DNA of 64,000 bases from Paracyclopina nana (lineage: Eukaryota; Arthropoda; Copepoda; Cyclopoida; Cyclopettidae), in the NCBI GenBank assembly GCA_019096065.1, contig JAGUCH010000002.1, positions 17,062,501 to 17,126,500 of the forward strand, given 5' to 3'. The position numbers and the translations under genes are program-made. A model generated the notes under the pieces. It had not been told where the DNA came from. It ran no database searches and was given only the letters and a program-made list of their open reading frames with translations. Below are positions 2,166 through 60,600 of this stretch, one piece after another (the first letter of the stretch is position 1; each line of letters begins with the position of its first letter).

Positions 2166-4711
2166 AAAATTGCAGTTGCTCCAAATGAATCCCCAATTTG
2201 GTTTTTGTCGAAAACATGTAAGGAATTCATCATAAGATTAAGTTACCCTGTTTTTGTTCAGTTTTTGCTTACAAAAAACAATTCTTCTCTCAAACAGAAA
2301 TTAACTCTTATAATCAAATATTGGAGCCACAAACTAGAAACACCAAAGGAGAGTTCTCTCTTTAAAAGTTAGGGGCAATCTTGGAATTCATGGTGCCCCT
2401 TTTTCACCCAATGCTCTGTTAGTTTTGATACCTATTTGCCCCCAAAATGAGTGTGACTATTTGTTGACAAAACGATCATGAATTCTTGCTCTACTCAATT
2501 TTTCCCATGTTTTATCACGAGCGGGCAGTGTAATGTTATGATAAGGATGTCTATAAACCGCGAGGCTAAGCCAAATTGACATATGATTATTATTATTATT
2601 ATTTTTTTTGAGCCGTATACAAATAATTTGATACCTTTTTTTTAAAATAATTTTTGGTATTTGAAATGTTTCCGAATTGTCTTGACAATTCAATGTGCAA
2701 AAAATGGACTAAATTCATCAACCGAGGTTTTGTTCGGCAGTGGCCAGATAACCAGCGCACAGAAATCCCGAAATCACACAATGCACACAACAGCCTTCTA
2801 GCGCCAACAGTTTTCAATTTTTCGGGGCCCCCTCTAAAAATGAGATGTTTAACTTTTTTATTTTATAAGCAAAATTAAGATAAGCATCAACTTTGTTTCA
2901 ATTGACTATCAGCAATGCTGCATCTCGATTCCTGTTTACCAAGCCATTTTATTATTAATTTAAGTGGGGACGTCAATGAAGCTTGTTATGCCTAAAAAAA
3001 TAAACCGTGGTAGCACTAGAAGTTTTTATTTTATGTCATCGGAAGAAATAGGCCAGGATTTTAATTTTGCAACAAAATCAACCCTAAGATCAAAAAGTTG
3101 CTATTTTTCATTTTTGAGGGCCTTAATTAAACTCGCCTCCCAGAACACATCTAACTGAATTCATGCTAAATCAATTTAGTAGACTGTATTGACTCAATGT
3201 TTCATTATGCAACAAACATGCCCACACCCCTCCCCGGCAATTGGAAAAGTCCGGGAAATGGAAATATTTCAAAGAGTTAAACTCCGTTCTGTTAAAATCC
3301 GTTCTGTTTAAATCCGTTCAGTTAAAATCCGTTCTGTTAAAATCCGTTGTGTTCAAATCCGTTCCACAAAAATCAGCTCCGTGAAAATCCTCTCTGATGT
3401 CTAAGCCAAAAATTGAAAAGTATTTAAAAATTTAAAAAAATATTTCTTAAGACTTTTTTCCTTCGGTGCTAAAATGCCATCCTGCTAACTTACCAAAATA
3501 TTTGGTCTTTTAGTATTTCTCTACAATATTTTGACAAAATACCAGACAAAAATAGATGAACAGGCTTTTTCATTAATACTTTGAATGGCATTGATAAGCT
3601 TTTGATTGGTTTTTATGCATCTACATATTTGGCCATTTCCTCCACATTCTGGTACAAAAACTTTAGTTTTATGACTCTGAATTATTTGTTATGCGTTATT
3701 TGTAAGAAGATTAAATCATGGACTGTTGCAAAGTACAAAAGTAGAGAAAATCATACAAGTAAATATGACCAAGACTAGGATCAAGATAAATTTGTTTTGG
3801 GATCCCTTGGACCTGTAAAGTCAAATTACAGCCATCAAACAAATTTTCATTCAATGAATTTTCAAAAAAACAACATTTAATTTTATCCCTCCAATTTCAT
3901 GGCCATGGAGTAATTAATATTCCAGAAAATGCTTACAAATAACTATGACATAACAGAGCTGAGTCAGATCAGAAAACTGAATTACAACACGAAGAAAACG
4001 TATTACATAATTTAAAAATGTTCCGGAGGAGGCAACCCAAATTAAGTGTCACTTTCCAAGCTGGACTTTTCTGTCACGTGGGGAGGTGTGTGCTGCAAAT
4101 TCGAGGCCAACTCAATAACACTCCTCATCAAATTGTCTAATCAGCTTGTGCAAATGCTATCAAGTATATGTCATCGACATTCCTCCTTATCAGCCTCAAT
4201 TAATCACGTGCGTTCAGTAATCGTTTGGATAGCGCACAATCATCTTCTTCTTCATTCTTCGCTTCGTGATTCAAATTTCAGCCTTCCAAGAAAAGTGAGA
4301 CGAAGGAGAACACAGTGAGCTGTCGGACCGTTGACAAGCGACTCCTCCCAAATAACGTACAAAAATTTGAAGAGGGCGCGCTACGCAAAAAGGAACAGCC
4401 TTGTATAGGCCTATATGTGAAGAGCTAACGCGCCTGCCCAAAAAGGAAGCCAGAGCGAACGTTACCCAAAAAGGATTAACACTGTTTCATATCACCGAGT
4501 TTTCGGGTAACGCGCACCCGTTTGCAACAGGTGCGGCTGCTCACCCAACTTACTTAATGCGGGCGCTCGTCGGCGAGCGGCGGGAATAAAAACGTAAATT
4601 CTTTTCTCGTCAAATTGTTGGGGGTCATAATAACAAAGTTGGGCACGGATTATTATTCCCAATGAGTCATCGCAGTGCGTGTGCCATCATCATATGACTG
4701 ACTAATAAGCC
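2166..4711. other. Intergenic region between the zinc-finger gene and spectrin
   Basis: About 2640-3095 belongs to an old interspersed repeat also seen at 13900-14300 and 50740-51115 (shared landmarks TTTCAATTGACT and GGGGGTCATTGAAG). About 3284-3395 is a degenerate minisatellite with a 16-17 bp unit around AAATCCGTTCTGTT. About 3950-4010 matches a 60-bp motif repeated at 8130 and 13830. The stretch 4020-4711 next to the spectrin start is more GC-rich and presumably holds its promoter and 5'UTR. I could not place a TATA box or transcription start. Confidence 0.5.
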
Positions 4712-7700
4712 ATGAGCAGCCGATATTCGCATCTCCTCCACGAGGAGGAGACGCATGACTTTGAAAAAGGCCGGATTCGGGCGCTCCAGGATGAGCGGCT
4801 GTCGATCCAAAAGAAGACCTTCACCAAGTGGGTCAACTCGTTCCTGTCGAAAGGCCGCACCGAGGTAAGAGCTAGGCTTGGGTTATGGCATGTTGACACT
4901 TTTGCCGTTTCCAGATCAACGATTTGTTCACCGACTTGGCCGACGGCAAGAACCTCATGCGGCTCCTGGAGATCATCTCGGGCGAGAGGCTGGGCAAGCC
5001 CAACTCGGGCAAGATGAGGGTGCACAAGATTGAGAACGTCAACAAGTGCCTGGCCTTCCTCCACACCAAGGTACTATTTATTCGAGAGTTTGCTCCTGAG
5101 CTAATGTTTCTTCCAAATCATGTCAGGTGCGACTCGAGTCCATCGGAGCCGAGGACATCGTGGACGGCAACCCGAGGCTCATCCTCGGCCTCATCTGGAC
5201 GATCATCCTGCGTTTTCAGGTTTACTTCCGATGCACAGTACTCTAAGCATCTGGTTTCCATCATCATCATCATTTTCAGATTCAAGAGATCGAGATCAAT
5301 GTGGACGAGCAGGAGGAGCACGGGGAGAAAAAGTCGGCCAAGGAAGCCCTGCTCATGTGGTGTCAACGCAATACGCGCGGCTACCGAGATGTGCACATCA
5401 GGGTAACTCGTTTGACCACTCGTCGTTCTTCGCCTATCTTCACAATTGACATTGCAGGACTTCACCGCATCCTGGCGCGACGGGATGGCCTTCAACGCAA
5501 TGTTGCACAATCAGAATCCCGACTGCATGGACTACTCCAAGTTGGCGTCGAGCAATCACCTGGAGAATCTGCAGCACGCCTTCGACGTGGCCGAGCTCAA
5601 GTTCGGCATCCCCAAGCTCCTGGACGCGGAGGACGTGGACGTGGCTCGGCCCGACGAAAAGTCCATCCTGACCTACATCGCGAGCTACTATCACACCTTC
5701 TCCAAGCTGAACGAGGGCCAGCGCGGCGGCAAGAAAATCACCTTCATCATCTCGAAGATTAAGGTGATCGAGGACAAACAGAGGGATTACGAGATAGCCT
5801 CCAAGGCCCTGCTCGCCTGGATCTCGGCCAAGACGGAGCTGATGCGCAACCGGAGCTATGCGAATTCCCTCGAGGGCATCCAGAAGGACTATCGCGCCTT
5901 CAAGACCTACTCGACGCGCGAGAAGCCGCCCAAGTGCCAGGAGAAGGTGGACATCGAGGCCAGCTTCTTCGAGATCGAGATGAAGCTCAAGGACCTTCGG
6001 CAGCCGCCCTACGTGCCGCCCGAGGGCCACCGGCTGGCCGACATTGAGCAGGCCTGGAAGGGCCTGGAGAAGGAGGAGCACTTGCAGGAGACTGCCCTGC
6101 GCTCCGAGATGATGCGGCTCGAGAAGCTGGAGCAGATGGCCGCCAAGTTCAACCAGAAGGTGGGGCTGCGCAGGAGCTACCTCGAGGAGATGATCCAGGT
6201 GCTGTCGGACCCGCGCTACGGCGCCAACCTCTTCAACGTCGAGGCCAGCCTCAAGAAGCACGAGGCCATCTCGGCAGACATCCTCTCCAGGCACGACCGC
6301 TTCAAGGAGATCCAAAAGCTGATGGCCCACCTCGACAAGGAGAACTACCACGCGAAGGCGGCGGCCTTGGCGGCCGGTCAAGGCCTGCTGGGCCAGTGGG
6401 CCCAGCTCCTCGGCCTTTTGGAGCAGCACCAGGCGAAGCTCGAGCTGGACAACCGCATGCTCGCGCACCTGCGCGACCTCGAGACGCTCCACGCCTCCGT
6501 CACCGCGCTCCGCGCCAAGTTCGCCTCGGAGGAGTTCCAGAAGGCCGCCAACATTGACGAGTCCATGCAGAAGCTCAACCTGCTCGAGTCGGAGGTGAAC
6601 GCGATCGCGGACGCGATCCGCAAGCTCAAGTCGCACGGCAAGCAGTTCGCGGCCGTGGGCAACGACCTCGAAAAGGACGTGGTGGCCAAGCTGGAGGCCC
6701 TCGACCAGGACTACTCGCACCTCGTGCAAATGTCCAAGGGGACGCGGCAAACGTTCGAGGACATCCAGTGCGTCCACCAGATCCGGAACGACCTGGACGA
6801 CGTGCACGCCTGGCTGTCGGAGAAGAACACGGTGATCCTCAACCCGGCCGTGGTGAAGGACCTGAACGCCCTCAGCCTCCAGGTGGAGAAGCAGAAGACC
6901 TTCCAGCACGAGTTCAAGAAGTGGTTCAAGAGGTACGAGAGCACACAGCAGTCCATGAAGAAGTTCGGCCTAGGCGCCGACGAGGCCTTCACCGCCAAGG
7001 TGGGCGTGATTGACAAGCTGTGGCAGGAGTTGGGAGCGCTCCTCAAGGACAAGGAGGCCCGCCTCGCCGCCCTCTTCTCCGCCCTCAACCTCAACTCCGA
7101 CCTCAACGATGCAGAGTCCTGGCTCAAGGATCTCAACTCACTGGTCACCGCGGCTGACATCGGCAGTGATGAAGTCACCTGCCAAGCACTCTCCAACCGG
7201 CACAAGGAGGTGGGCCAACAAATCAAGATCTTTGACCAGGAGCTCGCCAAGTTGGCCAACGCGCACGAGAAGCTTGTCAGAGAAGTGCCAACGTCGCCAA
7301 TGACGACGACCGCCATCAAGAGGAAAATCGTGGAGACGAAGCGAGTGCCGCAGGTCAAGGCGATCTACTCCTACAGTGGGCACGGCATCGATGTTGTCAA
7401 GGGCGAGCTCATGTTCCTCTTGGCCAAGAGCAACAAGGACTGGTGGAACGTTCGCACCGCAGGCGGCAACGACGGATTTGTTCCCGCCAACTATGTCAAG
7501 GTACTTGTCATCTATACACCTTTGTGTGACTACAGAGCCCAACTCGAGATTTTCTGGGGGCAAACTTTTTCGCTAGATGGCGCTTTATGAGCAAATGTTT
7601 TGGAAAAAACTGCCGAGTGCAGAGCATGTCACGTGATTATCATATGAAATTTGATTGGCTCATCAGCGGAGCCCGGCTAAAGTAGTTATTTATTTAGATT

Positions 7701-10700
7701 TGGGACACGTAAAGTTGGGTCATTAAATAGCTGAGCGAGGATTTTAAAATGGGAAAACTCGAGTACAGCTTTACTAGCCCGAGCCTGCGAGGGCTGTAAT
7801 TGTACGAGGTTTTGATCTGAGGTTCAAACCCCAATCGTTCCTTAACTTTTTTTTATTTCTTTATCTGGCTAAAATTATGGTAAAGTCCTGTACATAGCAC
7901 GCAATTTTCATGATGCCTCCATAGCTCAGAGGTTAGAGTATTGGAATGCTTATCCTATTGTCTGATGTTCGAATTTAGGATGATCCTCTCTTTTTTCCAA
8001 CTTCTCTGGAATTTGGATAAGTTCCATAGAATATGAGGGACATTGAATTACTTAAAATCCCTCAAATTTGATTCTAGGGCCGTTAAGTATTTAATATCCC
8101 CCAAATTGCTTAGAAAGAAATGTGATATTAAAGAGCTGAGTCGGATCGGTAAACTGAATTATAACACGAGGAAATCGTATTTCAGTATATAAAATAGTTA
8201 TTTATTTCGATTTGGAGCACACAATGTCGCTTAAACAGCTGAGCGTGGATTTTATAATAGAAAAACACAAGTGCTACTTTATAAGCACGAGCGAAGTGAG
8301 TGCGTTAAAAAAATGAGTGTGTTTTTTTTCATTTTAAAATCTGAGGTCAGCTATTTACAATGTATAGGTCTATATGAAGAGCTGAGTCAGATCGGTAAAC
8401 TGAATTATAACAAGAGGAAATCGTACTACAATATATAAAAATTACGAGTTAGCTATGACAAACTTGAAAAAAAATGCTTCAGATGCAAATAGTTTCTACC
8501 CAGAAAGGATGCCATTTTCTTATCTGTAGATTATATCATATAAGCAAAGTTTTTGGCGCAAGTGCTCCAAACGCCAAACAATTGCCAATTTGCCAATTTT
8601 CAATTGTCTATGTAGAGCAGGCATGTCAAATGTACTTGCCCTATTTAATCACATTGACTTGAAGCAGGTCCTTTACAACACCCAAAAAATATACATTTTC
8701 TGAAAGCTTATGCTCTAAGCGTTCATTTGGTAGTAATTTAAAACTCCTGGCCTATGGCTTCCCATAACATAATAGTTATTTAATTCGAGCTGGGGCACGG
8801 ATTTTAAAATGGAAAAACACTAGTACAATTACAGCCCTCGCAGACTCGGGCTAGTAAAGCTGTACTCGAGTTTTCCCATTTTAAAATCCTTGCTTAGCTA
8901 TTTAATGACCCAATTTTACGTGCCCCAGCTCAAAATATACAATTCTATATTCTGTAATACAATTTTTGAGTGTTTTAATGAGGTTACCGGGCTGCCCCGT
9001 GCCCTAGAAAATACTGCTCGGTTTTTAGTTGCTATGTGAATATCACTGGCTCTCATGAGGAAGCATCCAGTGGTTTGGGAGCAATAAAATAGACTTAAAA
9101 ATTCATTTTTTCAGAGGTGCACCTCTGGCACAATGGTTAGAGCGCTCGGCTCTTGATTCAATAGTCTGGGGTTCAAACACCTGTCATTCCTTAACTTTTT
9201 TTATTTCTTTATCTGGCTTAACAGCTCCTGACTGTAAGCCACAAGCAATCCTGATACAAGGTTTCGGATTCGAAAATCAGTTTTTTGGCCCAAACCCCTT
9301 GCAATAGTGTGAAAAGTTGGAAAATTAAGTTTCATGACCACTGGACCACTCTAGGGTGGTCAAGTGGTGCGGTAAGCAAAATGCTGTTTAGATTAAGGCA
9401 AAAATGAATGGGGGCCTAGCTGGAGGTGTGGGTATGGCCAGAAATCAACTATACCCTAATTATCTAGGCCCTGGGGGTGTCTCTAGGTGTCAGGGAAAAA
9501 AATTTGAAAAACGTAAACAAACTAGTTGAAAAATGGCCAAAATTCACTTTTTCGGACCCTACTTTGAGGGCATTTTCCTCCCATGTCAGTGGATGGATTT
9601 TTGATTTTTCAACTCTGGATGAAAGTCAAAGATTGGAACTGTCATTACAAAAAAGAAAATTCATTATATGTCTGCAGATGGAGCTCCTGGAGCGATTCAA
9701 AAATACACATTTTTTACAAAAATGACTTTACAGTAAAACATATAAAACTGACAAGCGGAAGTGAAGTCAAATACAAACATTTTTTTATCATCACAAACAT
9801 GTCAGTGCACACCCAGAGGCTTCTCCCAAACAAAAAAATTCAGGATATATAGGCCCTGCCCCTGGCCAGGAGCCTGGGCGGTCCCATTTATTCTCTGCTG
9901 TAACAGCTACATAGGCCAACAGGGAGCCCCTGGCTCCCATGTCAGTGGATGAAAGTGCCCATTTTCAGCCTCCTGAGGTCTGTGCTGACCTGGAGGCTTG
10001 GTCCAAGCAAAAAAATTCAGGGTACATTGGCCCTGGCCTGGAGCCAGGGCGGTACCGGTTATACTCTACTGCAGCAGCTTCATAGGCCAACAGGTAGCCC
10101 CTGGCTCCCATGTCAGTGGATGAAAGTGTCCTTTTTTGGCCTCCTGAGGTCTGTGCTGACCTGGAGGCTTGGTCCAAGCAAAAAAATTCAGGGTACATTG
10201 GCCCTGGCCAGGAGCCAGGGCGGTACTGGTTATGCTCTGCTGCAGCAGCTACATAGGCCAACAGGGAGCCCCTGGCTCCCATGTCAGTGGATGAAAGTGC
10301 CCTTTTTCAGCCTCCTGAGGTCTGTGCTGACCTGGAGGCTTGGTCCAAGCAAAAAAATTCAGGGTACATTGGCCCTGGCCAGGAGCCAGGGCGGTACCGG
10401 TTATGCTCTACTGCAGCAGCTTCATAGGCCAACAGGTAGCCCCTGGCTCCCATGTCAGTGGATGAAAGTGTCCTTTTTTGGCCTCCTGAGGTCTGTGCTG
10501 ACCTGGAGGCTTGGTCCAAGCAAAAAAATTCAGGGTACATTGGCCCTGGCCAGGAGCCAGGGCGGTACCGGTTATACTCTGCTGCAGCAGCTACATAGGC
10601 CAACAGGTAGCCCCTGGCTCCCATGTCAGTGGATGAAAGTGTCCTTTTTCAGCCTCCTGAGGTCTGTGCTGGCCTGGAGGCTTGGTCCAAATAAAAAAAT

Positions 10701-13700
10701 TCAGGGTACATTGGCCCTGGCCTGGAGCCTGGGCGGTACCGGTTATACACTCTGCTGCAGCAGCTACATAGGCCAACAGGGAGCCCCTGGCTCCCATGTC
10801 AGTGGATGAAAGTGCCCTTTTTCAGCCTCCTGAGGTCTGTGCTGACCTGGAGGCTTGGTCCAAGCAAAAAAATTCAGGGTACATTGGTCTGGGCAGTTTC
10901 AGCTATACATTTTGTTAATTTTTCATTCTTATGAGTTTTTTCAGACTCTCAGATCAATAGCCTGTTTATCAAATTTATTTTCAAGGATTCATTAGACCTT
11001 TTGATCACAAATGGGACTCCATTTCTACCCACAATTCATCGGTGTTCAGATCTTCTTTGCTTTTGGACCTCAGGAGGATGAAAAAGGACACTTTCATCCA
11101 CTGACATGGGAGCCAGGGGCTCCCTATTGGCCTATGTAGCTGCTGCAGCAGAGTGTATAACCAGTACCGCCCTGGCTCCGGGCCAACGCCAATGTACCCT
11201 GAATTTTGTTGCTTGGACCAAGCCTCCAGGTCAGCACAGACCTCAGGAGGCCAAAAAAGGACACTTTCATCCACTGACATGGGAGCCAGGGGCTACCTGT
11301 TGGCCAATGAAGCTGCTGCAGTAGAGTATAACCGGTACCGCCCTGGCTCCTGGCCAGGGCCAATGTACCCTGAATTTTTTTGCTTGGACCAAGCCTCCAG
11401 GTCAGCACAGACCTCAGGAGGCTGAAAAAGGGCACTTTCATCCACTGACATGGGAGCCAGGGGCTCCCTGTTGGCCTATGTAGCTGCTGCAGCAGAGCAT
11501 AACCAGTACCGCCCTGGCTCCTGGCCAGGGCCAATGTACCCTGAATTTTTTTGCTTGGACCAAGCCTCCAGGTCAGCACAGACCTCAGGAGGCCAAAAAA
11601 GGACACTTTCATCCACTGACATGGGAGCCAGGGGCTACCTGTTGGCCTATGAAGCTGATGCAGTAGAGTATAACCGGTACCGCCCTGGCTCCAGGCCAGG
11701 GCCAATGTACCCTGAATTTTTTTGCTTGGACCAAGCCTCCAGGTCAGCACAGACCTCAGGAGGCTGAAAAAGGGCACTTTCATCCACTGACATGGGAGCC
11801 AGGGGCTCCCTGTTGGCCTATGTAGCTGCTGCAGCAGAGCATAACCAGTACCGCCCTGGCTCCTGGCCAGGGCCAATGTACCCTGAATTTTTTTGCTTGG
11901 ACCAAGCCTCCAGGTCAGCACAGACCTCAGGAGGCCAAAAAAGGACACTTTCATCCACTGACATGGGAGCCAGGGGCTACCTGTTGGCCTATGAAGCTGC
12001 TGCAGTAGAGCATAACCGGTACCGCCCTGGCTCCGGGCCAACGCCAATGTACCCTGAATTTTTTTGATTGGCCCAAGCCTCAAGGTCAGCACAGACCTCA
12101 GGAGGCCAAAAAAGGACACTTTCATCCACTGACATGGGAGCCAAGGGCTCCCTGTTGGCCTATGTAGCTGTTACAGCAGAGAATAAATGGGACCGCGCAG
12201 GCTCCTGGCCAGGGGCAGGGCCTATACAGTCTGTCCCGTAGATTTCTGTACACTTTGAAATCAAAAGTTTGTGTTACAAATTCGGGAATTATTAGACACA
12301 ATGGATATCATTGGAAAGCTTGAATCTTTTGCCATCTTTTTTTGCTTCAATGGATAAAAGAAATTAAAAGTAAAAAAATGAGAAAACTTAATTTTCCTGA
12401 GGTACCCTTAATTTTTCTCCCAAAAAAGCAAATTAGCCAAAATCGGCTATTATCGACCAAATTTTCACTTAAGCTAATCCTGGCTATTTTTTTGACATTT
12501 TTTCATGAAAAAAAATCTTGCAGCACTGCGCTCATCAGAAAGGTGGATGATTGGAAAGGATATTTTTCAGTAAAAAAAGACAATAAGGCCACTGCCTACT
12601 AAAAAAGTTTCAAAATTAGTGTTTTAAACATCACATCTTTGGGATTTTTTGTTTATGAAGATCAAATGTTTAACCAATTTCATGAGAAATTGAATAAATA
12701 ATTTTTTTGTGAAAGTGACTTTTCATAAAAAAAAATCAGTGAAAATGGGAGTGAATTTGGAGTAACTATCAATTTTGTGGTCTAAATCAAAATTTGAATT
12801 AATACTTTTTAAAAATCTCAAAACTAAAAAAGATGGCTTAAGTTTCAAGCTTTCCAACAGTATCCATTGTGTCGAGTATTTCCAGAAGTTTTAACAAAAA
12901 CTTTTGATTTCAAAGTGTACAGAAATCTACAGGACAGACTGTATATCCTGAATTTTTTTGTTTGGGAGAAGCCTCTGGGTGTGCACTGACATGTTTGTGA
13001 TGATAAAAAAATGTTTGTATTTGACTTCACTTCCGCTTGTCAGTTTTATATGTTTTACTGTAAAGTCATTTTTGTAAAAAATGTGTATTTTTGAATCGCT
13101 CCAGGAGCTCCATCTGCAGACATATAATGAATTTTCTTTTTTGTAATGACAGTTCCAATCTTTGACTTTCATCCAGAGTTGAAAAATCAAAAATCCATCC
13201 ACTGACATGGGAGGAAAATGCCCTCAAAGTAGGGTCCGAAAAAGTGAATTTTGGCCATTTTTCAACTAGTTTGTTTACGTTTTTCAAATTTTTTTCCCTG
13301 ACACCTAGAGACACCCCCAGGGCCTAGATAATTAGGGTATAGTTGATTTCTGGCCATACCCACACCTCCAGCTAGGCCCCCATTCATTTTTGCCTTAATC
13401 TAAACAGCATTTTGCTTACCGCACCACTTGACCACCCTAGAGTGGTCCAGTGGTCATGAAACTTAATTTTCCAACTTTTCACACTATTGCAAGGGGTTTG
13501 GGCCAAAAAACTGATTTTCGAATCCGAAACCTTGTATCAGGATTGCTTGTGGCTTACAGTCAGGAGCTGTTAAATCATGGTGAAGTCCTATACATAGCAT
13601 GCAATTTTCATGGTGTTTCCATAGCTCAGTGATTAGAGTATTGGAATGCTGATCCAACTGTCTGAGGTTCGAATCTAGGATGATCCTCTCTTTTTTCTAA

Positions 13701-25700: not shown

Positions 25701-26203
25701 TCAGCGGTCAGCTTTTGTGCTTCTTCAAAGACCACAGCGATTTCAGGGACTCGAAGACCGCGGCCGCTGCTCCCATCCTGATCCACAATGCGACCTGCGA
25801 AAAGGCTCAGGACTACACAAAGAAGAAGCATGTCATCCGGCTGGTGACCACAGATGGCTCTGAGTTTCTGTTCCAAGCCACCAGCAGGGAGAGTGAAGAG
25901 GAGTGGCTGGACAAGCTCATTGTCACGTCCAGGCTGGAGCCAAGTGAGTCGGTCAAGCACGCCTCTTCGACGCTCTCCAGACCAATCATGGCCCCGCCAG
26001 AACCTCCACATGATGTGCCCAACAATGCTTCCAATTTCGCTGAGCCTCTGTACGCCAATGTTGGCCATGAGGAGAACCACCAGAATAATGACCACGAACA
26101 TGATACTTCCATCTCTTCCTCGGAGGTGGACTCGAAGGAAAACAAGAGGCCTGGAAGACTCAGCAAGCTTCTAGGGCTCAAGCAAAAGATATCAACTTCC
26201 TAA
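4712..26203 (+). CDS. kst: Beta-heavy spectrin (karst type), complete, 8 coding exons
   Basis: Exons: 4712-4864, 4915-5070, 5127-5219, 5280-5402, 5458-7500, 15257-22552, 24012-24871, 25507-26203. The first six junctions are phase 0 and the last is phase 2. They join to about 3806 codons. Residues about 30-260 form two calponin-homology domains (actin binding; [12 protein letters not shown], then [11 protein letters not shown] and [11 protein letters not shown]). Spectrin repeats follow, with an SH3 domain at about 805-856 ([20 protein letters not shown] ... [11 protein letters not shown]) that ends exactly at an exon border. Roughly 25 more repeats occupy a single 2432-codon exon. A PH domain lies in the last exon ([11 protein letters not shown] ... 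[12 protein letters not shown]). CH-CH plus an early SH3 plus C-terminal PH is the signature of beta-heavy spectrin, an apical membrane-skeleton cross-linker. Introns 1-4 are 50-60 bp, but intron 5 is 7756 bp of nested transposons. GC falls noticeably between exons 5 and 6. The start ATG is the first in frame with the conserved N-terminus. Confidence 0.93.
7916..8110 (+). repeat. tRNA-like SINE-type repeat, copy 1
   Basis: A box-like TAGCTCAGAGG at 7922-7932 and B box-like GTTCGAATT at 7967-7975 are spaced as in a tRNA-derived pol III promoter, followed by a T-run (CTCTTTTTTCC). A closer match to the consensus lies at 13613-13810. The acceptor stem cannot pair, so this is not a tRNA gene. The downstream body (CTCAAATTTGATTC..., AATATCCCC) is shared by both copies. 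Confidence 0.5.
8790..8931. repeat. Short palindromic repeat with 13-bp perfect inverted ends
   Basis: It begins GAGCTGGGGCACG and ends CGTGCCCCAGCTC. The interior is also partly palindromic (GGATTTTAAAATGG against CCATTTTAAAATCC). It is the reverse-orientation relative of the repeats at 7688-7800, 8210-8345, 15010-15095(-), 26945-27075 and 27655-27765, which share AGCCCGAGCCTGCGAGG-like and TTAAATAGCTGAG motifs. Confidence 0.5.
9941..10895 (+). repeat. 171-bp satellite array, left arm
   Basis: The landmark TCCTGAGGTC occurs at 9971, 10142, 10313, 10484, 10655 and 10828, giving spacings of 171, 171, 171, 171 and 173 bp. Two monomer types alternate (TTTCAGCCTCC and TTTTGGCCTCC), so the underlying unit is a 342-bp dimer. 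A diverged monomer precedes the array at about 9790-9940. Because 171 is divisible by 3, long open frames run through the array on both strands. They are a by-product of the period and not genes. Confidence 0.92.
11055..12200 (-). repeat. 171-bp satellite array, right arm (inverted)
   Basis: The reverse-complement landmark GACCTCAGGAGG recurs about every 171 bp, roughly seven times, with the same alternation of two monomer types as in the left arm. The left array has about six full monomers, so the arms are not perfectly matched in copy number. A diverged terminal monomer continues to the nested MITE at 12227. Confidence 0.9.
12227..12941. mobile_element. MITE family C (TA-flanked) nested in the right arm of the TTAA element
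   Basis: The ends are inverted repeats of over 100 bp (CAGTCTGTCC...TTTCTGTACACTTTGAAATC) bounded by TA. The left arm of the host element provides the empty site: about 9842-9855 reads GGATATATAGGCCC, while here the same sequence is split with one extra TA. The element is 715 bp, non-coding, and a Tc1/mariner-type derivative by its TA target. An older relative lies at 27111-27654. Confidence 0.85.
13613..13810 (+). repeat. tRNA-like SINE-type repeat, copy 2
   Basis: A box-like TAGCTCAGTGATTAGAGT at 13622 and a good B box GGTTCGAATCT at 13666-13676. TTGGA and TCCAA bracket a 7-nt loop ATGCTGA, which would place GCT at the anticodon position. The acceptor ends do not pair and there is no CCA context, so it is a tRNA-derived repeat and not a tRNA gene. 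The repeat as a whole was interrupted by the TTAA element, whose other flank is at 9110-9217. Confidence 0.55.
14745..15005 (-). mobile_element. MITE family X fragment (-)
   Basis: It carries the tail landmarks in reverse: CACCATCTAGCC, GTACATTTGACATGG, and the AAAACTTTGCTCATATGACATAATC block. It is continuous with the X head at about 15100-15233. With the 8470-8650 fragment on the other side, it extends the inverted organisation of the spectrin intron. Confidence 0.55.
22600..24000 (+). repeat. Degenerate tandem repeats filling spectrin intron 6
   Basis: About 22600-22930 repeats a 15-17 bp unit around TTTATCCAAAATCA. About 23340-23990 repeats a unit of roughly 60-66 bp built from GATCCCAAAGATCCAGGATC, CTATGATC and GTGATCTAGGTACACATAG, so GATC recurs very densely. 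The intron runs from the GTAAAA donor at 22553 to an acceptor ending at 24011. Confidence 0.7.
24887..25254 (+). mobile_element. MITE family X copy (+) in spectrin intron 7
   Basis: It begins TATAAGCCAGTGGAGGGAC, only 15 bp after the splice donor at 24872 (GTATGT), and runs to the TGACAGATGGCGCTGTGAATC tail. The head reads AGATGGCG and the tail GATGGCGC, so both family boxes are present. An open frame continues from the spectrin exon into this element but is not coding. Confidence 0.7.
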
Positions 26204-26279
26204 GACCACTTCAATACCTTTTCATTCTCAAGGAGCATTTTTACAACTTAAACCCTATCTATTTACACGAATAAGAAGA

Positions 26280-26722
26280 TTTTTGTCATCCGGCTGGTGA
26301 CCACAGATGGCTCTGAGTTTCTGTTCCAAGCCACCAGCAGGGAGAGTGAAGAGGAGTGGCTGGACAAGCTCATTGTCACATCCAGGCTGGAGCCAAGTGA
26401 GTCGATCAAGCACTCCTCTACGACACTCTCCAGACCAATCATGGCCCTGCCAGAACCTCTACATGATGTGCCCAACAATGCTTCCAATTTCGCTGAGCCT
26501 CTGTAAGCTAATGTTGGCCAAGAGGAGAACCACCAGAAAAATGACCACGAATATGATGCCTCCATCTCTTCCACGGAGGTGGACTCGAAGGAAAACACGA
26601 GGCCTGGAAGACTCAGCAAGCTTCTAGTGCTCAAGCAGAAGTTATCGACTCCCTAAGAACACTCTATGGCCTTAGAATGCTTAAGCAACTTTTTTACTAC
26701 TTAAAACCTATCTATTTTCACC
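26280..26722 (+). pseudogene. Decayed tandem copy of the spectrin 3' end (PH-domain exon end plus 3'UTR)
   Basis: The sequence from 26285 repeats 25832-26270 at a constant offset of 453 bp. It covers the second half of the PH domain, the C-terminal tail, the stop codon region and the 3'UTR (AAACCTATCTATTT). It begins immediately where the first copy's 3'UTR ends. Differences are scattered, and a TAC codon of the original is TAA here (26503-26505), so the frame is broken. There is no splice acceptor, start or promoter of its own. It may be transcribed as 3'UTR read-through. Confidence 0.9.
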
Positions 26723-35968: not shown

Positions 35969-38900
35969 TTATATTTCTATGTGCTTGTGAATTATCATCC
36001 TGGCCAGGTCATGAGAGCCAGAGTTTTGGTAGATGAGGCTGAGGTTAAATGCAGCCTCTCTGCTCAGGTTGAACCGCTCATTTCCCATGGGAGGCTCAGA
36101 GTTGAGCACACACTTGTAGTAGTGCATGGCAGCATGCAAAATCCCCAGCTGGTGCATAGCTCGGCCGAGATTGTAGTAGGTCTCTTGGCACTTGCCCCTG
36201 AGACTGACGTAGCTATGGAAAAAGGCACAAGCCTGAAAAAAAATTAATATATAATATCCATAAGTCCACTTAACCCAACCCGAATTTCTGAGCCGTCAAA
36301 CGCCAAAATAACTCTCAGTGAGACTTTTACGTTTCATCGACAGAGAGTTTATTTTGTTAGTTAACGTTAACTGCCTTGCCACCAAAGTAAAATCTTCAAC
36401 ACCAATTAGCAGTTTCGCCTTCGATTTTTTTTTACAAAGGTGGTGAGCCAGTAAATGTTACAATAACGACATAAACTCAACATGGGTAAAACAAAGTAGT
36501 GCTTACGCGTCACAATTACTCTAAGAAAACTTGGGAAAATTCTGAGCCCACATACGTCAAACTAACCCTCAGTGACACTTGTTCGTTTTATCGACATATA
36601 GTTTACGTCATTACTGATTTTTTCGCATAGGTGGTAAGGCAGTTAATGTTGCATAGCGACATAAACTCAACATGGGTAAAACGAAGGAGTGCCAACACAT
36701 TACAATAACTTTCAGAAAACTTGGGAAAATTCTGAGCCCACATACGTCAAACTAACCCTCAGTGACACTTGTTCGTTTTATCGGCATATAGTTTACGTGA
36801 TTCATGATTTTTTCGCATAGGTGGTAAGGCAGTTAATGTTGCATAGCGACATAAACTCAACATGGGTAAAACGAAGGAGTGCCAACACGTTACAATAACT
36901 TTCAGAAAACTTGGGAAAAATTCTGGCTGTGTCAAGAGGATCCACAACTCACTTGAATGACGAGGCTGTGCTTTTTGGCAGAGAACTTTTGGCAGGCCAT
37001 GTGAGTGAATGTTATGCCCAACATCAAAGGCAGCAGGGCATTGCTCCGGTCAGACTTGAAAACGTTCATGTACTCCCCAAGGGAGTATTTGTAGGTGCCG
37101 GACAGCAGGGTGTTGTGCCCGTTCAAAATGCCCATGGGAACGTTGTCCGGATGCCTCGTGGTCAGCCTCATGAGGAACTTGTTGTGCCTCGTGTCCTCCG
37201 TGTGCGAGGTGATGATGACGTTGAACAAGTTCCACAGCTTGACATTGCTCGCGTCCTTCACCACCAGCTCGCGAGCAAAGTTGAACGCAAAGTAGGCATC
37301 TCGGTTGAAATAGGCCGAAAAAAGGCACAAGCACTCGCATTCCTGGAAACGAAAAGCACAAATTAGGTGATTATTTGAGCGGAGCATTGGTCATTCCGGA
37401 GCTCAAAAATCACACTGTGGATTGGACTAAAGAAATACTCTGGAAAAGCAGCATTTAGTGCACGATGGGGTAAACTGGAGCGGAAACGTTCAAAAGGAGC
37501 ACAAAGTGCACCGTGTGGGTAGTTGGACGAAAAAAGTTCAGGTGTGAAAGCAGGAAAAAGTTCACCCTTACAATCATGCAAAGTGCACAGTGGGGCAAAG
37601 TGGACGAAAAAGTGCACCTTTTTAAGAAGCAAAAAGTGCACTGCGGGGCTAACTGAACAATTTAAATTAGCACTAAAGAGTTGAAAAGAGCCTGATTAGA
37701 AATAGCCCAGAAAAAACGTGCATCATAGGGTAATCACATGATTGAGCAACAAAATGTGCACAGTAGGGTAAAGTGGGCAAAAAAAGCACATCTAGAAGTC
37801 ATGCTACACAGAGGGACATAATATGGAATAATCCACCATTTCTTGGCATCAAATTACATAGGTCTGAAAGAGTGACCTCAGCCCCTGTGACATTTCTCTC
37901 AACTTATATGAAGTAGGGCGATCCCAAATTCAGATTTCTAGTCAGGTCACCTTGCTCAAACAGTAGTAACCTTTCTTGATTTGCTAAGTTTAGCTCAGTC
38001 GAGCCAAGTTCAGTTGGTTTTAGCCAAGTTCAGGTAGCTGCTATGCTGACTCGACAATCCATTTGATATCAGCGGCTGATGAGCCAACTTTGCTTTTCTC
38101 AATCAAGCAAGCTTCAGTCGCTAATCAGCAAACACTTTTCGTAAGCAGAGTTCCGTTTGGTAACTTTACTTAACTTGGCAAGCACGATAGTGCTACATAA
38201 AATTAAGCAAAGTTCGGATCTTCCAACATAAATTTCTGAGCACGGAACTGAGCTAAGCTCAACTTTTTTCCTGGCCTAACTTGACTAACATGTCAATATG
38301 GGTACGCCCTACTTTTTTGCCTCAATTCCTTGTGAAGAAACGAATGGGTATAGCTCCTCCGCTCAAATAACTGGAATGCAGGCATAGCCTGAATAGGAAT
38401 GAGTACCTTGATGATGTCCGGGTGCTTGTTGAAAACATGAGAGCCCAGAGCGGAGAAGGTGAGCCTTTGCAACTCAGCGAACCGCTTTTTGGCAAGTAGC
38501 ACATCACAGGCCTTCCGCATGAGGTCAAACTCATCTCTGGCCGTGACCTTGGTGTCAGAATCAAAAGTGGGCATGTCATCCATGGCCTCCACATTGGATA
38601 TGTGCTTGTTCAGGGCCCGTACTTCATTCAGGTCCTTGTTTTTCTTCGACAACCGTTTGGAGTTGGCCACTGCCAACACCTCTTCGCGACTGTGAAGCTC
38701 CACGAAATGTCTGGAGAACAAGAGTTTGGTCTTCTTCAAGAACTCCTCCTCTTGGCCTTCGCTCAGCAGGAGCTGGCACCTCTCATACAGCAAAGTTGGG
38801 TTGAGCAGTTCAGCTTCCTCATCCTGAGTCAGGGTAAACAGAGCTTCATCGGTTCTCCCCAATTGCCTCAAGATGATGGATAAGGACTTGCGAGCCTCAT

Positions 38901-54620: not shown

Positions 54621-57600
54621 ATGGAGGCCAACAAGCCAAAGGCCACCATTGTGGGCGAGGTTGTCAAGCACACCTCGGCCAGGAGCAAGGCCACGTGTGA
54701 GATCTCGGCGGAGGGCTTCAACCGCGAAGACATTGACGTGAACATCCTCTCTCCGTCCAAGGTGCCGGTCTCGTACAGCCTGTCAGAGACAGGGGATGGG
54801 CTCTTCTTCGTCGAATTCGTGCCCCAGGAGGTCGGCACGTACATCATGGAGGTGTACGCGGCCGGCCTCAAGATTCCGGAGTCACCGGTGTTCTACAAAG
54901 TCTACGACTCCTCGCTCATTCGCGTCACCGAGACGGGCAATGGAGTCGTGGGCCAGCCCTGCCAATTCAGGGTGGACGCGTCGCAGGCTGGCGAAGGCCA
55001 GCTCGAGATCTCCATCAACGATGGAGAGGTGCCAAATCATGTCCAAGTGCTGGGTGGAGGCCGCTGCCTCGTCCATTTCACACCCGAGGTGGCCAAGCCT
55101 CACACAATCGACATCAAGTTCAACGGAGGTAATCAATGCTAAAATACAAGGATAGCCCCAAAAAGGCCTCATTTGGGGGGTAGTTCACATGGATTTCCCT
55201 TCAAGGGTTTCTTAAATGACCAGGAAAAGAGATACATTGTTTTCCAGCTGTAAAGTTTGGTGCTCCATATCTCCTTTCATGGACGTTTTAGCAATTTGCT
55301 TATGAAGCAAAAAAAGCTGGGTTTTTCAATTTGAGAGGGGGTCATAAAAGCACATGATGTCAATAAAATTGAGTGTGCCTGAGCTAGAGGCCTTTCAACA
55401 TTTTGAGGATTTTAAAGAGACCCCCGATTTGAACTCTTATTGGGACTCAAGTTTTCAAAAAACACGCAAACATTAGTTTATAAAGTCAATCTTTATAGCA
55501 TACATTAGTTTATTATAAAGTTAATCTTTATAGCCAATAAGGCTAGTGTGGATACCAGATACGAATTTTCCTGCTGTTTACACTTTTTGGCATTTTTGAA
55601 GGTGAAACGGCGAAAATACTTCTAGGCTCGTAAATAATGATAATAAAAAAGATCGCAACTCCATCTAGCGGACGAGAGCCACATAATGTGGTATAGTATA
55701 TGGCATTTTTTGCTAAGCATTGATTTGATTTTGCAGAACCCATCACTGGATGCCCATTTGTGTGCCGAATCGCAGACACAAGCAAAGTGTCCGTGGCTCT
55801 GCACCATTTGGAGCTTTTCCCTGTCAACGAGAAAGCCACCTTTCAAATCCACGTGGACACTGCAGACAATGCTGAGCTGGCAGTGTCTGTGGCAGGACCA
55901 CGGTCAGATCTACCAGTTCTTGTCACTGGCAACATCAAAAGTGGCTTCCTCGCAGAATTCCTGCCCGAAGAAGTGGGTCCATATGTCATTTCAGTGGAGT
56001 ACAACAACATTCCAGTCGGAGGAACGCCCTTCACAGGTACATTTTAATACCCGACCAGAAATTTGCCCAAGTTTTCGTATTTGAATCTTGTTAGCACTCC
56101 TTCGTTTTACCCATGTTGAGTTTATGTCGTAACACAACACTAATTGCCTCACCACCTAGTATATGTAAAAAATCAAAGATGAATTTTTTTATTTAACTTA
56201 GGCGTCAAGGCAGTCAATGCTACAAAACAATGGGAATCGAAATTTTCAGTTTTTAGTAATGTAATTGCTATGTGTCAATTAGCACTCTTTTGTTTTACCC
56301 ATGTTGAGTGTATGTAGTAACATAACACTAAGTGCCTTACCACCAAGTATATGTAAAAAATCAAAGGTGAAACTGCAAAGTGGTTTTTTTTATTTAACTT
56401 AGGCGTCAAGGCAGTCAATGCTACAAAATGATGGGAACCGAAATTTTCAGTTTTTAGTAATGTAATTGCTATGTGTCAATTAGCACTCTTTTTTTTTACC
56501 CATGTTGAGTTTATGTTGTAACATAACACTAAGTGCCTTACCACCTATATGTAAAAAAAATTGAAAGTGAAACTGCAAAGTGGTGCTTTCGATTTAACTT
56601 CTGGTCGGGAATTATAATGAATGACTATGTTAATTGAATGCAGGCAAAGCATATGACGCATCAAAGGTGCTCGTGTCCTCAATTCCGTGGGGCACCATAG
56701 GAAAGGCCGTGGACTTCACCGTGGACGCCAGCAAGGCCGGAGAGGGCAATTTGGAAATCACCATCTCAGCACGTGGCCGCAACATTCCCACCCAAGTGCA
56801 TCCTCAGGGATCAGCCAAATTTGTGGTGAGCTTTGTGCCCCTCGAGGGCATCGATCACATCATCAACATCACATTCAACAAGGAACTCGTACCAGGCGCT
56901 CCGTTCACAGCCAAAATTCACACGGGTAATTACCATTTTATACCCCACCAGAAAATCCATTTTAAACCCTTTTGGAAAGTAGGACGTTTATGTCACTGTT
57001 CATCTTAGCTACTTTTTCCTAACTTTCTTGTTGGACCTTACTGAAAAGTTGTCGCAACTCCATGAATTTCTATGCACTGTCATAGCTATGAAGAACTAGT
57101 TTAACACATAGCTGCGCAATAGCTGCTTCTAGGGTTGGCTAGATGAATTCACGAAGCCGTACCTAGATTGCTCGAGTTGCAGTCTATATGTAGAATGTTT
57201 CAGGCTACCCTAACTGGCGGGCTTTACTTGCTCACAACTCATCCTTATTAAACCAAGATGCTTATTAAACCTCATTGAGAAATTTAGTCCTTAAGTTAGT
57301 ACGAGGTAAACCATTGTGATTCTGGTAGACAAACTTGCAACTGATGGCAAAGCGACACTCATTTAACCAGCCCTAGCTAGCCTGCGCTTAATTTGTTTGA
57401 CTCGCTTACAACTTATTCTTACGCTTGCAATTGGTTTCGCGCATTGAATTCCATTATATTTTTTCGTCATAGAACAATGGCAATTTGAATTAAGACAGCT
57501 TAGGTTACCACTGATTTTGTCGGGGTAGATGAACTGGTAGACAAACTTGCAACTGATGGCAAAGCGACACTGATTTAACCAGCCCTAGCTAGCCAGCTCT

Positions 57601-60600
57601 TAACTTGTTTTACTTGCTTACCTAATTCTTACGCTTACAATAGGTTTTGCACATTGACTTCCTCCATTATTTATCGTCATAGAACAATGGCAATTTGTAT
57701 AAAGACAGCTGAGGTTACCACTGATTTTGTCGTGGTAGATGAACTGGTAGACAAACTTGCAACTGATGGCAAAGCGACACTGATTTAACCAGCCCTAGCT
57801 AGCCTGCGCTTTACTTGTTTGACTCACTTACACCTGAATCTGATACGCTTGCAATTGGTTTCGCACACTGACTTCCACCATATTTTGTTGTCATAGAACA
57901 ATGGCAATTTGAATTAAGACAGCTTAGGTTAAGACTGATTTTGTCGTGGTAGATGAACAGGGCATTTGTTGGTGATTTTTACCACCAAGTTTCAATTGGG
58001 CTCAGAATACTTTTCTGGTTGGGAGATTGATTTCTCTAGTGCAATATGGTGAAACTAATATGCCTTATCATCAATCAGATCCTAACCACATCATCGTATC
58101 TGGACACGCACTTGCCGCAACCGCAGTCGGCAAAATGTCCTTCTTCACCTTATCGAATGTCATTGGGTCATTAGAGGACATCGAAATTGCCATCGACGCG
58201 CCCACAGGTGACTCGGTGCAAGCGGCAGTGACTGAAATCTCCAAGGGCACCTTCAAGGTGGAGTTTTGCCCCAAGGTGGCAGGCGAGCACCAAATTTACG
58301 TCTCCTTTGGGAACGAGCCTGTCCCTGGCTCTCCATTCCCATGCAAGGTGTACAATGTTGCGGCCATCCAGGTGCGCGAGTGCAAGAAAGGAATTGTGGG
58401 CAAACCGGTGACCTTCCTCGTGGAAACCTCACAAGCTGGCCCAGGAAACCTGGAAGTGACAGGTAAGCCATTTATACACATTAGTACTATAACAATAATA
58501 TTGATGCAGGGCGACCCTAGCGGCCTTTTTGCGCAACAGCTGGGACATTCGGCTGACACTGCTCGGGAAAAATTCACAACAGTAATATAACAATAACAAA
58601 CGCAAGTAGCACGCCTAGCGGACGGAAAGTTGAAACATTTGGGATTAGGGAGTAGTCGATTCAAAATTCAGTGCTACAAGATCCCTTGATGTGAGCGTGC
58701 AGTGAATTTTGGATTGTTTACATCGTCTAACAAGAAAAGGACCGATCTTAGGGCAATTTTTGTGTGCATTAGCTATTTTTTTAGTTTCGTGTTGGCTACA
58801 AGTTTTCTAAACTGTTAGAAATCATTAAGATCAATGGAGCAAGTTTTTTTGCACTCCAATTGAGAAGTCTGGAGATTATTTTGATTCTTCTTTTTATATT
58901 TCAGCCTCAAAAAAGTAGTACGGTTGTGTAAACCGTGAACCCTGAAATCCCAAGTATTTCTTCAGTAATGTCACTTGATGGCGTATCATTGTTATGATAC
59001 TTTTGTCTATAACTGAGTTCTTGCGATTTGAGTAATAGTTCGACATAAAGACCCAAGCAAAGATGTGCCGTCAAACTTTATAAATAATTACTTCTTGATA
59101 CAATGATTAAGTGGTTTTCAAACACAACCATAAGCTGATGCTATGATTAAGCAGGAAAAAAAAAACATTTATGAGAATTACTCACACTAAAATTAATGAC
59201 TGGACTCAACAAAATGAAACTTGAACTCCCAAGTGTTTCTTCAAAATTGTCGGTAGATGGTGTGTTTTTGATACTATGCAGCTGTGTTCAGCTTACCTGA
59301 TAATATATTTTCAGCTACATATTCAATGGTAGGGCTAATTCAGATTTAGAAATGTGCTTTACATGGCCACGAAAAAGATCATTGATTTTTAACTGGATTT
59401 GAAAAAGACATTTGAGTTTCACTTGGAGCTAGGTTTTTTTTCTAACTTCTATCAGAAAAATACATATCATGTCAGTTTTGTGATTGCAGTGAATAATGGG
59501 CAAGTGCCCACAATTGACAGGTATTTGACACTATGTCATGTAACATGAACTGCCTTACCACCTATGTGAAAAATTGTGCAAATTGGTTTTTAAGATTTAC
59601 GCACTGTAAACCGAATTTCCTCGTGAGTAATTCACTTTGCGGGTTGACTCAGCTTTTTTGCGCTCCCGATCCGCTATGAAGTAAATGATAACCCTAGGGA
59701 TATTTTTTACTAAGTAAATGAAAACCCTAGGGATATTTTTTGCTTAGCTAATGGTAAATGAAAACCCTAGGGATGCGTTTTACTTAGTAAAAAATACCCC
59801 TGGGGATGCTTTTTACTTAATAAAAAATACCCCTTGGGATGCTTTTTACTTACTAAAAAATACCCCTGGGGATACTTTTTACTTACTAAAAAATACCCCT
59901 GGGGATGCTTTTTACTAAGAAAAAAATACCCCTGGTTATGCTTTTTACTAAGTTAGAAATGCCCCTAGGGTTTCCATTTGCCATTTGCTTAGTAAAAATA
60001 TCCTTAGGGTTACCATTTACTTCATAACAGTTTGAATTAGGGCTATTAGTGGGCACATGATTCTCAACTTACATAAAATGTCATTTTTGCCCCATTGCAG
60101 TGAACAATGGGCAAGTGCCCACAAGTGCTCAGGCCCAGGGCAATCACACCTATGCCATCTCGTTTGTGCCCAAGGAGGCCAAGGCCCACGTGGTGGAGCT
60201 CAAGTTCAACGGGGAGAACGTTCCGGGCAGCCCGTTCAAGTGCGCCGTCGTGGACGCCGCCAGGGTCAACCTGACCGGGGACGGCCTGGAGAAGGTGCCC
60301 GTGGGCCGGCAGGCCAACTTCCACATCGAGGGGCAGACGGAGATGGGCGATCCGGAGGTGAAGGTGCTTTCCCCTGGGCGCAAGTTGGTGCCCAGCTCCA
60401 TCCACTTCGTGAGCGAAGGCCACTACGGGGTGGACTACCTGCCCAGCGAGGTCGGCGACCACCAGATCGAGGTCAAGATCTCGGACCTGCACGTGCAGGG
60501 CTCGCCCTTCGTGGTGAAAGCCTACGACGCCACCAAAGTCTCCGTGACCAACTTCACGTCCGGAGTGATCCAGAAGCCGGTCTACTTCAGCATTGACGCC

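Follow-up and report, generated by a model that had tools for sequence, protein, structure and literature searches.

A TTAA-flanked palindrome of the copepod Paracyclopina nana as a probable short derivative of a foldback transposon with a viral-type glycoprotein gene

The palindrome and its insertion site

The window analysed here is a stretch of 64,000 nucleotides from the copepod Paracyclopina nana (assembly GCA_019096065.1, contig JAGUCH010000002.1, positions 17,062,501 to 17,126,500 of the forward strand). At 9222-13569 it holds a palindromic element, flanked by TTAA on both sides, in which inverted outer arms of 628 bp enclose two opposed arrays of 171-bp monomers (Table 1). It is probable, in our opinion, that the whole is best explained by a short TTAA-target foldback element, internally deleted and non-autonomous, whose parent carries a transposase-like gene and a gene for a viral-type glycoprotein.

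A sequence-only reading of the window had described precise ends with a TTAA on both sides, nearly identical 628-bp arms, and opposed 171-bp arrays of six and about seven monomers. All of this is borne out: the coordinates hold, the inverted repeat (9218-9852 / 12939-13573) extends over 635 nt with 100% identity, and Tandem Repeats Finder returns a period of 171, with 6.0 copies at 9860-10887 and 6.7 at 11066-12214. The arrangement in 342-bp dimers, also proposed, is visible in the right array, where the mean identity is 0.962 at lag 2 (4 pairs) versus 0.931 at lag 1 (5 pairs). In the left array, where a fixed-step reading may lose phase, it is not seen (0.820 at lag 2 versus 0.833 at lag 1).

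The same reading had pointed to a related unoccupied repeat matching the joined flanks. When the joined flanks are aligned with 7791-7920, one extra block of exactly 4 bases appears, which agrees with this claim, though the relative reads TAAA at the target position and not TTAA. A second alignment of this repeat gives 89.6% over 384 columns. It is a diverged paralogous repeat, not an allele.

Table 1. Features of the palindrome and its insertion site (positions in the window)
Feature	Positions	Strand	Basis
Left target-site duplicate, TTAA	9218..9221	.	Empty-site alignment: exactly 4 extra bases
Left outer arm, 628 bp, starts CAGCTCCTGACTGTAAGCC	9222..9849	+	
Arm site CTCCCATGTCAGTGGATG, also within the 171-bp monomer; candidate transposase-binding site	9578..9595	+	18/18 bases
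Left tandem array, six 171-bp monomers	9857..10884	+	
Centre, probable deletion remnant of the glycoprotein gene 3' end	10889..11066	-	95.5% identical to L015:2512-2688
Last 18 codons and stop of the glycoprotein gene	11005..11061	-	Translation and tblastn
Right tandem array, ~6.7 monomers	11066..12217	-	
Nested 715-bp insert, inverted ends CAGTCTGTCC, TA on both sides	12227..12941	.	
Right outer arm, 628 bp	12942..13569	-	100% versus left arm over the 600 bp compared
Right target-site duplicate, TTAA	13570..13573	.	
Related unoccupied repeat, matches the joined flanks	7846..7920	+	

Copies in the genome and target site

The searches cover the 92-Mb genome (10 contigs), which, as befits an arthropod, has 80 matches to the cuticle domain PF00379, a domain found in 0/14 control genomes. 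The 19-bp end of the element occurs exactly 26 times in forward and 27 times in reverse orientation, and this count is not due to chance, since the same pattern read backwards, used as a control, has 0 occurrences in the 92-Mb genome. The exact ends form 25 convergent pairs and 3 single ends, and TTAA adjoins 53/53 of them (0-mismatch rows). In 24 pairs, the window copy included, the ends are separated by 2.4-5.5 kb; the remaining pair spans 13.4 kb. When TTAA plus the end is searched with up to 3 mismatches, the counts rise to 35 and 37, a pattern which includes TTAA itself and is uninformative on the target.

The sequence-only reading had suggested a DNA transposon of the foldback type, and that other copies with the same ends and TTAA be looked for. 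The 25 pairs and 3 single ends, the long inverted repeats which contain tandem repeats, and the empty site all agree with a multi-copy TTAA element of this type. The pattern shows what is apparently cutting at TTAA with duplication of these 4 bp.

The outer arms are 98-100% identical (40 arms scored of 126 candidates). An older group of arms, at 95.6-97.8%, comprises L010, L011, L012 and the 13.4-kb copy (L014/L015), and the right arm of L033 is at 95.0%. The near-identity of the arms indicates recent movement. The two arms of a copy are mutually closest in 7/25 copies (12/25 with ties), which is uninformative as to gene conversion from arm to arm. The number of monomers per side varies from 1 to ~15.5 between copies, and L016 has four alternating array blocks.

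A search of the genome with a single monomer gives 364 matches. It had been proposed that the element seeds or recruits satellite arrays, and this finds no support: the 150 of these 364 matches that were listed and inspected by eye all lie inside elements or, for three of them, in one damaged element at C1:911-912 kb, so that no free satellite array is among them; the assembly may lack heterochromatin. At L045 6266-8498, near a damaged element of the same family, called family A below, lies a tandem array with a 472-bp unit (4.7 copies, 99% matches).

The long copies and their genes

The 13.4-kb copy of family A (C2:9462623-9476004, loci L014 and L015), whose arms are 100% identical (600 bp), has open frames between its arrays. 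A sister family, family B, is present in two copies (C1:7.40M and C2:16.93M) with ends CAGCCAGTATTG, arrays of a 180-bp monomer and 643-bp arms, which are 100% identical at the four ends and in a fifth arm at C2:73513; pieces of this arm are also found at C1:6346-6347 kb (87-92%). The long form has the order outer arm, array, transposase-like gene (leftward), glycoprotein gene (rightward), array, outer arm, and its full length is 13.4 kb in family A and about 12.9 kb in family B.

The rightward gene matches PF24664, the Monjiviricetes fusion glycoprotein, whose curated Pfam cut-off is 27 bits. The last-exon pieces exceed this value in family A (model 347-635, 1.2e-12, 47.1 bits) and in family B (56.8 bits). 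A further family A piece matches model positions 80-169 (2.9e-6, 26 bits); for the last-exon piece of family A, the next best Pfam family is Orai-1 (0.015, below cut-off). The family B pieces match at 1.4e-15, 8.4e-6 and 8.9e-5, and a fourth has no Pfam match. Two hydrophobic stretches near the C-terminal end, a likely membrane anchor, are seen in both families, and the splice points coincide, by eye, at two exon ends (end of piece 1, start of piece 4). Searches of viral contigs found no relatives of either protein, and solved structures gave nothing useful (best 0.099, to a Sin3a domain).

The leftward gene is multi-exon, and its Pfam matches lie below cut-off (E 0.085 and 0.17). Three motifs common to A and B, found by eye, hold candidate catalytic acids, DWAMK (D), SDNAG (D) and TPxEF (E), so that the product may be a DDE-type enzyme. 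It had been suggested that a transposase of piggyBac or Kolobok type with the same ends be looked for: a transposase-like gene is indeed present in the 13.4-kb copy, but neither type is confirmed, the ends being CAG...CTG and the Pfam matches under the cut-off.

Between the two families, the transposase pieces are 48.8% and 51.8% identical and the glycoprotein pieces 58.7%, 47.1% and 42.6%, while 57-63% of third codon positions differ versus 28-32% of second positions; the protein pieces thus have the codon pattern of purifying selection. The arms of A and B have an aligned identity of 51.6%, whereas 60 shuffles aligned with the same flags average 42.4% and do not exceed 47.8% (mean 42.6% and maximum 47.6% in a separate set of 20 shuffles with slightly different flags). 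Between the divergent genes, family A has a repeat pair with 75% identity (L014 7535-7858) and family B has tandem repeats with units of 166-169 bp (L038 4813-5406, L041 4698-5254), which are perhaps a shared promoter region.

Used as a genome query, one long glycoprotein piece finds 5 places and one long transposase piece 3, and all 3 transposase places also hold the glycoprotein. At these (C2:9.47M, C1:7.40M and C2:16.93M) the two genes are together and divergent, their matches lying 4-6 kb apart. The fourth place found with the glycoprotein (L043, C1:15493001-15502500, at 2527-4880) is a decayed third family, relic C, in the same divergent arrangement, with glycoprotein pieces on the + strand (3622-4880) and a transposase piece on the - strand (2527-2691). 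The fifth, L044 (C2:12429001-12438500), is a gypsy-type element without a transposase piece: at 4086-9130 on the minus strand an open reading frame (ORF) for a gypsy-type integrase (rve, 1.1e-16) is followed by two PF24664 ORFs (4.7e-44 and 1.2e-23). This genome also holds, in L044, a glycoprotein of the same class within a long terminal repeat (LTR)-type element. A glycoprotein-like stretch is also seen on the minus strand of L045 (9533-9988, C1:916.5 kb), 28% identical to a family B piece (E 4.5e-9).

Origin of the short copies

The 178-bp centre of the window palindrome (10889-11066) matches L015:2512-2688 in the 13.4-kb copy with 95.5% identity. Its minus strand encodes the last 18 codons of the glycoprotein and the stop (11005-11061), plus the 3' tail, and tblastn aligns window 11070-11008 with the glycoprotein at 90% over 21 residues. 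This centre is kept in 13/24 short copies, in two of which (L026 and L028) one residue differs in the 18 codons; in the remaining 11 the arrays adjoin directly or nearly. Because its centre is the 3' end of the glycoprotein gene, kept in 13/24 short copies, the palindrome is, to judge from its sequence, derived by internal deletion from a TTAA foldback transposon that bears this gene. The simplest reading would be one founding deletion between an array and the glycoprotein gene, then amplification of the short form. The single window could not reveal the viral-type glycoprotein gene of the parent or the identity of its remnant.

Arrays and the shared arm site

The family A monomer contains an exact copy (18/18) of the 18-bp arm site at arm positions 357-374. 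The family B monomer, whose sequence is unrelated to that of A, carries 17/18 bases of positions 362-379 of its own arm. Among resampled arms, 0/150 (A) and 1/150 (B) match as well. The two sites overlap at a box, TGGATGG, that is conserved between the arms of A and B. In the A monomer, the shared block has a conservation of 0.993 versus 0.956 overall and ranks 7 of 154 windows, as calculated from 192 distinct monomers (316 stretches of at least 160 nt; 69 shorter matches dropped). The arrays are probably amplified transposase-binding sites, as has been proposed for the tandem repeats of Galileo and Tetris in the sections of PMC4079207 that deal with them.

It is also plausible, though we lean against it, that slippage or unequal exchange within long inverted repeats left the arrays behind as passive by-products, which play no part in transposition. 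The variable number of monomers per side (1 to ~15.5) and the four alternating blocks of L016 need no selection, and among 23 diverged monomers the shared block is conserved modestly (rank 32 of 154, 0.908 versus 0.870), which also weighs against a binding function. What speaks for such a function is that unrelated monomers of similar length (171 and 180) each copy the same arm position, and that few parts of the A monomer are as well conserved as the shared block. The 171-bp "satellite" holds a multiplied piece of a transposon arm, and this multiplication seems to have occurred separately in two sister families at the same arm position.

Interpretation and alternative explanations

Paired ends, a 4-bp TTAA duplication, insertion at many sites, a gene pair in two families and a relic, and a gene remnant in short copies are observed here. 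In the mechanism that we propose, the encoded putative DDE-type enzyme would cut at the CAG/CTG ends and would also bind the site located in the arm some 360-380 bp from the end. In each family this site would have been multiplied independently to form the 171- or 180-bp arrays, so as to provide many binding sites. The short copies would be mobilised in trans, as their common ends, arms and remnant suggest. Last, the viral-type fusion glycoprotein, under selection with the transposase, would aid passage between cells or hosts; captured env genes in retroelements are an analogue for such a transfer. Judged from the kind of protein and its conservation alone, the glycoprotein may act as a factor of entry or spread.

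Several observations do not sit easily with this interpretation. The class of the enzyme is proposed from its position, its co-conservation and its motifs: the Pfam matches of the transposase-like pieces (E 0.085-0.17) are under the cut-off, the PDB gives nothing convincing for them, and PHROGs has no match for the three pieces tried. Near L014:5767-5900, an intron or a break splits the transposase frame of family A, which is continuous in family B. Three glycoprotein pieces are, taken alone, under 27 bits (26, 24.5 and 21.1), while being colinear with the PF24664 model. The ends of family B read TTAA in three of four cases and ATAA in the other. Long copies number just one in family A and two in family B in the contigs searched. 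Last, copy B2 has many small indels, and 126 indels and 65 substitutions separate it from the other family B copy over 9.5 kb. Such differences are as expected for unpolished repeat sequence, and for this reason we draw no inference from the stops in B2.

Palindromes are prone to misassembly and the repeats of this genome look unpolished (126 indels against 65 substitutions), but an assembly artefact is hardly credible, since the 25 pairs differ in their flanks and array lengths and every exact end has its TTAA. Inverted ends together with a fusion glycoprotein call to mind an endogenous DNA virus or a Polinton/Maverick-like element, as fusogen-bearing Mavericks are known. This we hold to be very improbable: the long element has just two recognisable interior genes and a 4-bp TTAA target, and the interior A and B ORFs scanned have no Pfam match to polymerase B, capsid, protease or rve integrase.

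The glycoprotein could also be an unrelated endogenous viral element, or a nested retroelement, that has fallen into one foldback copy. This class of glycoprotein is often endogenised in arthropods and captured by LTR retrotransposons, according to parts of PMC10084718 and PMC7642597; in horseshoe crabs, several insertions of chuvirus glycoproteins have DNA-transposon domains on their flanks, which are taken, in the relevant part of PMC12282059, as a possible route of integration; and in P. nana itself a PF24664 gene is carried by a gypsy-type element (L044). An accidental insertion is nevertheless improbable in our view, as the two genes have the same order and divergent orientation in both families and in relic C, the A and B protein pieces being 43-59% identical, and as a remnant of the gene is kept in 13/24 short copies. 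Moreover, the interiors hold no LTR-like direct repeats of at least 60 bp, just tandem or neighbouring ones, and no match to reverse transcriptase, integrase, N or L is found among the A and B ORFs scanned.

If the glycoprotein is indeed a part of the transposon, one may go further and picture an "enveloped" cut-and-paste transposon, which has retained an RNA-virus-type fusion glycoprotein while its proteins diverged to about half identity, and which by this means moves between cells or hosts; its satellites would be the short palindromes, drifting along with their arrays of binding sites. We find this idea possible but on the whole doubtful. If it were true, such an element would be the DNA-transposon counterpart of the transition from retrotransposon to retrovirus. 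To our knowledge, most cut-and-paste transposons carry nothing able to take them out of the cell. Their movement across species is a long-standing question, for which a conserved viral-type fusion protein on a small TTAA transposon is a testable candidate.

Relation to known elements

By its long inverted repeats holding tandem repeats and its target-site duplication, the element has the structure of the foldback class. Sola3 elements have a TTAA duplication and a Sola3-type DDE transposase, and no Sola3 match is among our Pfam results. The piggyBac superfamily was rejected: the transposase-like pieces of A and B have no Pfam piggyBac match, just unrelated ones under the cut-off (E 0.085-0.17). 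So was the Polinton/Maverick gene set, with no polymerase B, rve integrase or capsid in a scan of interior ORFs that took in neither the remaining frames nor shorter ORFs. Mutator-like foldbacks, such as Tetris, are expected to have an 8-10 bp duplication, whereas that found here is the 4-bp TTAA.

Galileo has a P-superfamily transposase with a THAP domain, and we know of no viral gene in it. Its tandem repeats, like those described here, lie within inverted repeats, and they hold extra transposase-binding sites, according to the passages on this element in PMC4079207. The same paper, in its description of Tetris, a foldback element of Drosophila virilis, reports an outer arm followed by a ~220-bp tandem array with a variable number of repeats, and a 37-bp stretch common to the repeat and the outer arm, much as in the P. 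nana element. On the contrary, the duplication is of 8-10 bp in Tetris, for which that description knows of no transposase-bearing copy and mentions no viral gene, and long satellite arrays have formed there, unlike here (none among 150 of 364 monomer matches). The element of P. nana is a foldback whose parent is actually present in the genome.

With Kolobok, the element shares the 4-bp TTAA duplication (53/53 ends; 4 extra bases), and several Kolobok lineages have an extra accessory gene (PMC9587614). However, the sections of this paper that give accessory genes include no glycoprotein among them, and Kolobok ends should read 5'-RR...YY-3' according to the same source, instead of the CAG...CTG of both A and B, which led us to reject this assignment.

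Other mobile elements have been found in company with viral glycoproteins. "Anakin", a Pao retrotransposon, is a mobile arthropod element with a chuvirus-type glycoprotein, in the accounts given in parts of PMC7642597 and PMC10084718, but it is an LTR retrotransposon, whereas the present element is a DNA transposon with a TTAA target, which has arrays and a transposase-like gene and whose glycoprotein gene contains introns. An unclassified element of Bemisia tabaci with complete boundaries, mentioned in a part of PMC10084718, could be of the same kind as ours. In the horseshoe crab insertions, the same glycoprotein class adjoins DDE_Tnp or Transposase_1 domains; the pertinent part of PMC12282059 does not describe a single mobile unit defined by its ends, a target duplication and a recurrent pair of genes, and some of these insertions could be of the present kind. 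Teratorn, a fusion of piggyBac and herpesvirus, also joins a DNA transposon to viral genes, including an envelope glycoprotein, but it has 41-182 kb and a herpesvirus gene set in the descriptions that parts of PMC6431247 and PMC5822658 provide, compared to ~13 kb and one RNA-virus-type glycoprotein here. Thus glycoprotein-bearing arthropod retrotransposons, transposon-herpesvirus fusions and foldbacks with satellite-like repeats are already known, from parts of PMC10084718, PMC6431247 and PMC4079207, respectively. No description of a small DNA transposon with an RNA-virus-type glycoprotein was found in the part of the literature covered (titles and abstract openings), the nearest being the horseshoe crab case.

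Other features of the window

The 715-bp insert nested in the right half of the palindrome interrupts a sequence that is uninterrupted in the left-arm counterpart. It resembles a miniature inverted-repeat transposable element (MITE), with inverted ends of ~120 bp; by its target and shape we take it to be of the Tc1/mariner type. A relative at L039 4410-5140 is 95% identical and also has TA on both sides.

The genes of the window presumably include a giant spectrin and filamin-like repeats. A 453-bp tandem duplication (25831-26721, 91% matches) extends into a PH-domain frame, which we assume to be spectrin-like. Further dispersed tandem repeats of 190-210 bp, with 2-3 copies each, are found at 36427-36925, 56184-56600 and 57322-57958.

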